Source of the DNA: Thermosynechococcus sp. CL-1
GTDB lineage: Bacteria > Cyanobacteriota > Cyanobacteriia > Thermosynechococcales > Thermosynechococcaceae
NCBI RefSeq assembly: GCF_008386235.1
Contig: NZ_CP040671.1
Coordinates: forward strand, 2,420,001-2,484,000
Length of the DNA: 64,000 nt
Direction: 5' to 3'
The notes beneath the pieces are model-generated. The model did no database searches. It saw only the letters and a list, made by a program, of their open reading frames with translations, and had not been told where the DNA came from. Positions 49,548-54,005 of the stretch are shown here, in pieces. Every line of letters starts with the position of its first letter. Position 1 is the first letter of the stretch. A program made the position numbers and the translations under genes.

Positions 49548-49555
<8 letters not shown>
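48527..49555 (+). CDS. ldpA: LdpA: iron-sulfur protein of circadian light input
   Basis: 342 aa. Two iron-sulfur binding motifs are visible: CPPRCDRPCERICP and CYGCGRCLPLCPLG. In Synechococcus elongatus LdpA senses redox state and adjusts clock period by affecting CikA and KaiA stability. The C-terminal half is the LdpA-specific domain, with QLAGGTNGHTVAKLRAMGL. The ATG at 48527 (MVDFAAPLAAL) is chosen by resemblance to other LdpA starts; 48518 is also possible. It overlaps the next gene by 8 nt. Confidence 0.9.
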
Positions 49556-51251
<1,696 letters not shown>

Positions 51252-51472: not shown

Positions 51473-51486
51473 CCCTAGGCTATGAT
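51473..51486 (+). promoter_or_regulatory. Repeated promoter-like box, copy 1
   Basis: CCCTAGGCTATGAT, 46 nt before the first DUF3782 gene. TATGAT could be a -10, with TTCATG 17 bases upstream as a weak -35. The same box recurs at 52184 and 52855. The rest of the 280-bp gap from 51252 shows nothing else definite. Confidence 0.5.
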
Positions 51487-51531: not shown

Positions 51532-52131
51532 ATGACACAAGCATACACCCCTGAAGATGTTTGGCGATTATTAGGCGAGCTATTAGAAGCCCAAAAGGAA
51601 ACTGAGCGGCGTTTTCAGGAAACTGAGCGGCGTTTTCAAGAGACTGAGCGGCGTTTTCAAGAGACTGAGCGTTTACTACGGGAAGAAGCACAACAGCTCA
51701 ACCAACAGATTGGTAAATTGGGTAACCGTCTTGGGGAATTTGTGGAATGGCAAGTACGTCCAGCCGTGCTGCGCTTATTTCAGAGTCGGGGGATTGCCGT
51801 CTCTCAACTCTACAGCGATGTGATTCTCCAAGATGGGAACGAGAGCCTAGAGATTGATCTGTTGGTCGTTAACACCGATGAAGCCGTTCTCGTTGAGGTG
51901 AAAACCAAGCTCAGCCAAAGTGATGTGGATGAACACCTAGAGCGGATTGCCAAATTTCGCCGTTTGGCTCATCAGTATCGGGGTACAAAACTCTTGGGAG
52001 CCGTGGCGGGGATGATTGTGCCCCCTGAGGTGGCTCGCTATGCCTATCGGCAGGGTCTATTTGTGTTGGCACAGTCGGGAGATGGCGTGGCAATTCTCAA
52101 CGACCCGCAGTTTCAGCCCCGCGCGTGGTAA
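51532..52131 (+). CDS. DUF3782 / PD-(D/E)XK nuclease-fold protein, copy 1
   Basis: 199 aa. After a short start (MTQAYTPEDVWRLLGELLEA) come three exact ERRFQET heptads in a coiled coil, then a helical stretch LNQQIGKLGNRLGEF. A C-terminal nuclease-like core shows EIDLLVVN and EAVLVEVKTKL, with the Asp and Glu-x-Lys of the PD-(D/E)XK superfamily. Activity is unproven; this family is abundant and multicopy in cyanobacteria. The ATG at 51532 is fixed by identity with copy 2; a longer frame upstream is not conserved. Confidence 0.85.
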   Translation: MTQAYTPEDVWRLLGELLEAQKETERRFQETERRFQETERRFQETERLLREEAQQLNQQIGKLGNRLGEFVEWQVRPAVLRLFQSRGIAVSQLYSDVILQDGNESLEIDLLVVNTDEAVLVEVKTKLSQSDVDEHLERIAKFRRLAHQYRGTKLLGAVAGMIVPPEVARYAYRQGLFVLAQSGDGVAILNDPQFQPRAW

Positions 52132-52183
52132 AGCATAGTGGCAGTGCCCTTGCGCAGTTTATGATGGAAATTCTCTGAGTGCC

Positions 52184-52197
52184 TCCTAGGCTATGAT
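52184..52197 (+). promoter_or_regulatory. Repeated promoter-like box, copy 2
   Basis: TCCTAGGCTATGAT, 39 nt before the second DUF3782 gene. Differs from copy 1 only at its first base. Confidence 0.5.
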
Positions 52198-52236
52198 GAG
52201 AGGGTTAGCTGTAGCCTAGAAAACCCGACCAAGATC

Positions 52237-52815
52237 ATGACACAAGCATACACCCCTGAAGATGTTTGGCGGTTATTGGGGGAGTTACTGGAAGCTCAAA
52301 AGGAAACAGAACGCCGATTTCAAGAAACTGAGCGGCGTTTTCAAGAGACTGAACGGTTACTGCGAGAAGAAGCTCGCCAACTTAACCAACAAATTGGCAA
52401 ACTGGGTAACCGTCTTGGGGAATTTGTGGAATGGCAAGTACGTCCAGCCGTGCTGCGCTTATTTCAGAGTCGGGGGATTGCCGTCTCTCAACTCTACAGC
52501 GATGTGATCCTCCAAGATGGGAACGAGAGCCTAGAGATTGATCTGTTGGTCGTTAACACCGATGAAGCCGTTCTCGTTGAGGTGAAAACCAAGCTCAGCC
52601 AAAGTGATGTGGATGAACACCTAGAGCGGATTGCCAAATTTCGCCGTTTGGCTCATCAGTATCGGGGCACAAAACTCTTGGGAGCCGTGGCGGGGATGAT
52701 TGTGCCCCCTGAGGTGGCTCGCTATGCCTATCGGCAGGGTCTATTTGTGTTGGCACAGTCGGGGGATGGGGTGGCAATTCTCAACGACCCGCAGTTTCAG
52801 CCCCACGCGTGGTAA
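52237..52815 (+). CDS. DUF3782 / PD-(D/E)XK nuclease-fold protein, copy 2
   Basis: 192 aa, the same as copy 1 except for one heptad fewer in the coiled coil (two ERRFQET units), Gln to Arg in EEARQ, and Arg to His three residues from the end. The Asp and Glu-x-Lys residues are unchanged. Nearly all nucleotide differences are synonymous, so both copies are under selection for protein sequence and neither is a pseudogene. It may form homo- or hetero-oligomers with copy 1 through the coiled coil. Confidence 0.85.
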   Translation: MTQAYTPEDVWRLLGELLEAQKETERRFQETERRFQETERLLREEARQLNQQIGKLGNRLGEFVEWQVRPAVLRLFQSRGIAVSQLYSDVILQDGNESLEIDLLVVNTDEAVLVEVKTKLSQSDVDEHLERIAKFRRLAHQYRGTKLLGAVAGMIVPPEVARYAYRQGLFVLAQSGDGVAILNDPQFQPHAW

Positions 52816-52854: not shown

Positions 52855-52868
52855 CCCTAGGGTATGAT
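52855..52868 (+). promoter_or_regulatory. Repeated promoter-like box, copy 3, upstream of hemE
   Basis: CCCTAGGGTATGAT, 105 nt before the hemE ATG. The sequence around it (GGAATTCTC before, TAGGGTTA after) also resembles the flank between the two DUF3782 genes, so it may be the ancestral hemE promoter or a product of the duplication. Confidence 0.5.
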
Positions 52869-52973: not shown

Positions 52974-54005
52974 ATGACCACCCCTTTACTCCTACGTGCT
53001 GCCCGTGGTGAAAGCGTTGAGCGTCCCCCCATTTGGTTGATGCGGCAAGCTGGACGCTACATGAAGGTCTATCGTGACCTGCGCGATCGCTATCCCTCGT
53101 TTCGTCAGCGATCGGAAATCCCTGAACTGGCTATTGAAATTTCACTCCAACCCTTTCGTGCCTTTGCCCCAGACGGTGTGATTCTCTTTTCGGATATTCT
53201 CACGCCCCTGCCAGGGATTGGTATTCCCTTTGACATTGTCGAGAGTAAAGGGCCAATCATTGATCCACCCATCCGTACCCTTGAGCAGGTGCAACAACTC
53301 CATCCCTTGGAACCGGAAGCGGCCTGTCCTTTTATTCGCCCGATTCTCTCAACCCTGCGCCAAGAGGTGGGCGATCGCGCCACGGTGCTGGGGTTTGCCG
53401 GTGCCCCTTGGACACTTGCCGCCTATGCCATTGAGGGCAAAAGCTCCAAGGACTACATTGAAATCAAAACCATGGCCTACCGTGAGCCAGAGTTGCTCCA
53501 CAAGTTCTTAAACCATTTGGCCACTGCCATTGCCGACTACCTGTGCTATCAAATTGACTGTGGTGCTCAGGTGGTGCAATTGTTTGATTCGTGGGCGGGT
53601 CAACTCAGCCGTCAGGACTACGATAGCTTTGCCTTCCCCTACCAAAAGCAGGTGGTTCAGCAAGTTAAAGCCGTCTATCCTGATGTGCCCATCATCCTCT
53701 ATATCAATGGCAGTGCCGCAGTGGTCGATCGCATGGCAGCAACCGGGGCAGATATTGTCAGCCTTGACTGGACCGTGGACATCGGCACGATTCGCCAGCA
53801 GTTTCCTGCCAGTGTCGGTCTGCAGGGGAATTTAGACCCCGTCACGCTCTTTGCCCCCCAGCCAGTGCTCAAGGAACGAGCGCTAGCCATTATCGAAGCG
53901 GGTCGCAAGGGCAAATATATCTTTAACCTTGGCCACGGCGTTCTCCAAGGAACCCCTGAGGAGAATGTGGGTTTTCTCTTTGATCTGGTGAAGTCCCTCG
54001 GCTAA
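52974..54005 (+). CDS. hemE: Uroporphyrinogen decarboxylase
   Basis: 343 aa. Decarboxylates uroporphyrinogen III to coproporphyrinogen III for heme and chlorophyll. The signatures [14 protein letters not shown] and [16 protein letters not shown] are intact, with the catalytic aspartate in [14 protein letters not shown] and [12 protein letters not shown] near the C-terminus. The frame opens with a TTG at 52944, but the ATG at 52974, with AGG just ahead, gives the usual N-terminus. Coupled to the next gene by a 1-nt overlap (TAATG). Confidence 0.96.

Follow-up and report, generated by a model that had tools for sequence, protein, structure and literature searches.

The window, a stretch of 64,000 nucleotides from Thermosynechococcus sp. 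CL-1, contains a tandem pair of related genes, with an ATPase gene (49548-51251) on their left and hemE on their right. The hemE gene starts at 52974 and is present in 10 of the 11 genomes of the genus. Both genes of the pair are read on the forward strand. Copy A (51532-52131) encodes a coiled-coil, PD-(D/E)XK nuclease-like protein of 199 residues with three ETERRFQ heptads. Copy B (52237-52815) belongs to the same family and encodes 192 residues with two heptads. In the genomes G002 and G004 just one such gene lies next to hemE, that of G004 being frameshifted, and B is the orthologue of this gene; the orthology of its 5' part extends to G006. The left flank of the single genes corresponds to the region upstream of A and their right flank to the region downstream of B, and their 5' end is of the B type. 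The G006 counterpart has been split next to an insertion-sequence remnant: 170 bases lie by the ATPase gene (L054:5175-5344) and the distant 3' 79 bases are left by hemE (L056:4333-4411), about 540 kb apart. A 24-base trace of the gene is left in G009.

The two proteins have matches to the Pfam families DUF3782, NERD and PDDEXK_10, all below threshold. For DUF3782 (PF12644) they score 20.0 and 21.7 bits alone against a cut-off of 24.4, and the B frame reaches 24.8 bits only with its neighbourhood included. NCBIfam gives no match above cut-off, a sequence search of the PDB brings up nothing beyond fortuitous coiled-coil similarity, for instance to haemagglutinin stalks, and the PADLOC models of anti-phage CARF/NERD nucleases match the core weakly (best E 2e-4, 18 bits). 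An AlphaFold2 model shows a long helix at residues 7-85, which begins with low confidence (pLDDT 54-66 for residues 1-60), followed by an alpha/beta core modelled with confidence (pLDDT about 81-97). The best structural matches of the core are PD-(D/E)XK nucleases (Foldseek best E 3e-5, to 1y88; VIA-align Z 8-10, up to 10.4, over 105-121 residues). D109, E122 and K124, which make up a D...E-x-K motif, are invariant in 26 aligned homologues, and so is E72. By predicted fold and motif, A and B belong to the PD-(D/E)XK nuclease superfamily, and their likeliest function, by inference, would be that of a DNA nuclease working as a coiled-coil oligomer.

Pfam groups the coiled-coil stalks of a PD-(D/E)XK endonuclease family as DUF3782 (eLife 2016, PMC4786415). 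Like those enzymes, A and B have an N-terminal coiled-coil stalk ahead of the core; unlike them, they contain heptads only, with no nonad insertion seen, and stay under the family cut-off when scored alone. The core fold is also that of the NucS/EndoMS, Can2/Card1 and XisH-type nucleases (2vld, 7bdv, 6wxw, 2inb), but the identity is 11-17%, and a long helix takes the place of the CARF or NucS N-terminal domain. Likeness of fold to these nucleases does not by itself show function.

The initial annotation of this DNA had described the divergence of the two copies as a mosaic, and alignment, a breakpoint scan and permutations reproduce that mosaic almost to the base. The alignment of A and B covers 579 sites, 28 of them mismatched, and contains one in-frame gap of 21 bases, equal to one heptad. 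Bases 1-35 of A (51532-51566) are identical to bases 1-35 of B (52237-52271), one base more than had been counted, and the first mismatch is at A position 36. The divergent segment, A 36-187 (51567-51718; its counterpart is B 36-166, 52272-52402), has 23 mismatches at 131 aligned sites besides the heptad gap, in keeping with the approximately 24 differences over some 150 bases reported before. The mismatches are at A 36, 42, 45, 49, 52, 54, 60, 72, 75, 78, 81 and 87, and at 117, 147, 150, 159, 161, 162, 165, 168, 177, 183 and 187. Only two of the 23 are nonsynonymous, as the description 'almost all synonymous' implied. The core (A 188-600, 51719-52131; B 52403-52815) has exactly the five differences in 413 bases that had been noticed, at A 294, 453, 549, 555 and 590. 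Synonymous difference is 0.69 in the divergent segment (21 of 30.7 sites) and 0.04 in the core (4 of 98.3).

A free two-breakpoint scan returns exactly A 36-187 as the odd segment, with a score that is reached in none of 1000 permutations. At sites polymorphic in the family, the contrast between the 5' segment and the core has a Fisher P of 9e-10, and the longest run shared by A and B, a GENECONV-like measure, has P = 0.0046. Since three of the five core differences cluster in the last 52 bases (P = 0.016) and two fall in A 188-548, the near-identical tract really spans about 188-548. The proposed split between coil and nuclease core holds as to age, with an old 5' part and a young core, but the boundary is not clean: besides the identical start, a patch of 29 identical bases occurs within the coil, and the junction lies at A position 187/192, approximately 50 bases beyond the heptads. 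Likewise, the proteins do differ in heptad number, but not in coil length alone, because residues 54 (Gln/Arg) and 197 (Arg/His) differ as well.

The heptad array has its own turnover, as indicated by two observations. All three heptads of A (51598-51660) are near-copies of each other and of heptad 2 of B (the B heptads are at 52303-52344), and the 29-base patch, A 88-116 (51619-51647), which matches B 52324-52352 at heptad 2, is identical only in the A/B pair. Five of the 23 mismatches (72-87) fall in heptad 1 and reflect this turnover; outside the heptads the 5' segments differ by about 20%. Two heptads are the rule at the hemE position, and A has three. At an orthologous position of a second locus (slot 3) the number varies from 4 to 9. 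Such a range at a single orthologous position makes a conserved length code improbable, and a fixed stalk-length code for the choice of partners appears unlikely from the sequences.

Comparison with relatives shows which copy is odd. B differs from its G002 orthologue at 4 of 104 sites in the 5' part (3.8%) and at 24 of 413 in the core, and its 5' part differs from G004 and G006 at 9 and 6 of 104. The 5' part of A is 18-28% from every gene compared, and its core differs from G002 at 23 of 413 sites. Of the sites informative against G002, 2 join A to B and 20 join B to G002 in the 5' part, and the corresponding numbers in the core are 21 and 2 (Fisher 1.6e-8). This pattern indicates that, as judged by sequence comparison, B is an ordinary orthologue over its whole length, that A is a mosaic, and that the common ancestor of the two cores is younger than the species split. 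The cores are 1.2% apart (5/413), compared with 4.5-5.8% (18-24 differences) from the lone orthologues of G004 and G002, the nearest two species, and the core tree groups A with B at 90/85. Paralogues are thus closer than orthologues within the tract; outside it orthologues are closer, as seen for B and again at the second locus.

Synonymous difference between the 5' parts outside the heptads is about 0.8, counted on only 18-20 sites, and that between separate gene positions is 0.4-0.8; the 5' parts of A and B are as different as separate gene lineages. No donor or close relative of the A segment was found among all family copies in 29 genomes, and the segment has no orthologue there. At its very start, over 33 bases, A has the sequence type proper to this position. 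The 5' branch of A is long (0.25). In the 5' tree a grouping of A with B is not significantly rejected by an AU test (P = 0.13, on 104 sites), and another AU test of a 5' clade gives P = 0.32; both tests are underpowered.

The region between A and B (52132-52236) is unlike the region upstream of A. Its best match among the window segments tested is the region upstream of hemE (score 42.5, next 38.5, 0 of 1000 shuffles), from which it differs by many substitutions and gaps. Such divergence fits an old rather than a recent duplication. A promoter-like motif, CCTAGGCTATGAT, lies upstream of A (51474-51486) and again upstream of B (52185-52197), and the form CCTAGGGTATGAT lies upstream of hemE (52856-52868). 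The motif CCTAGGSTAKGAT, which precedes all three genes, has only these three occurrences in the 2.65-Mb genome, a distribution that hints at a common promoter unit copied with the duplication.

These findings are best explained by an old tandem duplication followed by recent gene conversion limited to the core, to which we give a probability of about 0.58. The pair would be an old tandem duplicate, each copy with an N-terminal helix bearing the heptad array and then the PD-(D/E)XK core. The two copies would have drifted apart long ago, since synonymous sites in the 5' part are near saturation and the intergenic region has diverged. The core would then have been overwritten recently through recA-type homologous repair between the neighbouring copies, and the near-identical tract, roughly A 188-548, would be the trace of this conversion. 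Conversion tracts may tend to end close to the heptad array, a stretch in which A and B are unequal in both length and sequence, and heptad number may shift separately through repeat turnover. The likely outcome would be one common catalytic core on stalks of unequal length, from which a functional benefit might follow. The initial annotation had proposed the same combination of recent core conversion and an older 5' split; the ages of the two parts stand, and conversion is the probable rather than the demonstrated process. A finding that speaks against an old pair is that the flank upstream of A leads, in G002, G004 and G006, into a gene with a B-type 5' end. Given these B-type ends, either an old pair collapsed to one copy in those genomes or A is new here.

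The strongest rival is the import of a left segment. DNA of an unsampled Thermosynechococcus lineage, starting roughly halfway along the ATPase gene, crossing the intergenic region and ending within A, would have been recombined in, with its right junction at A 187/188, and the core of A would be native. One such event would yield the same mosaic. We hold this to be rather improbable but a live rival, because A alone has an odd 5' segment and the adjoining end of the ATPase gene is unusually diverged. In the 3' part of that gene (50251-51251), substitutions found in this genome alone are in excess: they rise from 13/1718 to 24/996 in the last kilobase (P = 0.0005; P = 0.0002 relative to other lineages), with no such change in G002. 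Synonymous distance to G002 doubles at the ATPase end, from 0.23 to 0.45, and drops to 0.18-0.22 in the core and to its right. Divergence from G004 and G002 is 18-25% upstream of A and only 2-4% upstream of hemE, and the lack of a close relative of the A segment in the 29 genomes would also be expected of foreign DNA. The rise is, however, partly a matter of local rate, as the distance between G002 and G010 climbs too (0.24 to 0.37). The A segment, at about 0.8, is farther away than the ATPase end at 0.45, which is paralogue-like rather than allele-like, and the first 33 bases of A are already of the local type. Import leaves unexplained both the diverged intergenic region and the second locus, where no effect on the flanks is needed. 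Conversion and import could both have occurred.

Another possibility is that a B-like gene was duplicated in tandem recently and that ectopic conversion then pasted segment 36-187 of a divergent paralogue into A. It would account for the local type of A on either side of the segment, in the first 33 bases and in the core, and for the three A heptads being near-copies of B heptad 2. A recent duplication should have left an intergenic region nearly matching the flanks, yet this region is diverged, and the search of the 29 genomes yielded no donor; we judge this course of events distinctly unlikely. Joining or polishing together of the two copies during assembly is a very improbable cause. Near-identical tandem copies are prone to assembly errors, but this one-contig genome keeps five core differences and distinct flanks, and the pattern is seen again at another locus and in another assembly. 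Least credible of all is that the 5' part of A is a mutational hotspot or under relaxed constraint. The long 5' branch of A would suit it, but so few nonsynonymous changes (2 of 23) would not, and a hotspot is rejected because B is equally diverged from orthologues and paralogues in its 5' part and core. The initial annotation had named uniform divergence of orthologous pairs and a 5' hotspot as the outcomes that would count against its reading; the A/B pattern is absent from orthologues, B has no 5' excess against G002, and none of nine comparisons of B with orthologues or paralogues gives a significant 5'/core contrast where testable.

Homogenisation of the core only, as claimed for A and B, is found again between neighbouring copies at a second, independent locus. 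G000 has copies there at 1292.7 and 1294.7 kb, and G002 has copy 1819 and three tandem copies; the correspondence of copies was assigned by their downstream flanks. In the quartet formed by G000 1292/1294 and G002 1819/1817, 27 core sites group the copies by genome and none by position, whereas 2 of the 5' sites group them by genome and 5 by position (Fisher 7.5e-5). The core tree agrees with the grouping by genome. The G006 pair at this locus shows no homogenisation (48/413). The three tandem copies of G002 (L046:4450-6688), spaced at 788 bases, are homogenised over their whole length, and the fourth copy beside them keeps a position-specific 5' end.

Outside the genus, Arthrospira PCC 9108 has six tandem copies (L074:558-6781) with two N-terminal types that are 9-11/66 apart, and except for one copy the cores are 4-10/417 apart regardless of N-terminal type. 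The 5'/core contrast has P < 0.005 in 9 of the 15 copy pairs; this comparison is without an orthologue control and its pre-region differences include amino-acid changes, so that faster evolution of the pre-region may be the cause. In Microcystis (L098, L099) the upstream and N-terminal parts keep their identity by position and the core sites are scrambled, a weak signal from few informative sites. The contrast is seen in one of three pairs of L126 and is mostly absent from the arrays L127-L130 (none in L127, in L129 or in the L128 pre-region), though stalk lengths differ there. The recurrence is therefore firm in Thermosynechococcus and only tentative in the wider family, since three further array genomes are mostly without the contrast. 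As a separate observation, G036 (L128, L129, L130) has many members of the family, with stalks of about 60-180 residues and cores that are almost identical within each array.

Prokaryotic duplicates under gene conversion have been described as alike within a genome at both synonymous and nonsynonymous sites (Commun Biol 2018, PMC6053082). A and B resemble such duplicates in concerted evolution in that paralogues in one genome are closer than orthologues. They differ from them in that concerted evolution in that survey runs over the full gene length, whereas here it is limited to one domain. Concerted evolution that acts on only part of a gene, domain by domain, is already known; what makes the present case interesting is that it recurs beside unequal repeat arrays. 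Just two papers were found to name DUF3782, and no published description of gene conversion in this nuclease family was found. The Thermosynechococcus loci would offer a clean bacterial case of conversion held to one domain, with replicate gene pairs across genomes and a candidate barrier, repeat arrays of unequal length, that is open to testing. Trees of such nucleases that are based on the core follow genome membership and not gene identity. It is conceivable, if doubtful, that the same holds across cyanobacteria: conversion would keep neighbouring cores uniform, heptad arrays would stop the tracts, and stalk length and N-terminal type would diversify, possibly giving sets of oligomers that share one active site and assemble differently.

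The region between A and B also contains a 32-base dispersed repeat (52136-52167). Repeats of this TAGTGGCAGTACCCTTGCGAAGTTTATGATGG-like kind occur at 12 places in 6 of the 11 Thermosynechococcus genomes, a reversed control giving none, and in at least two loci (L120, L121) the repeat ends at an apparent gene start.
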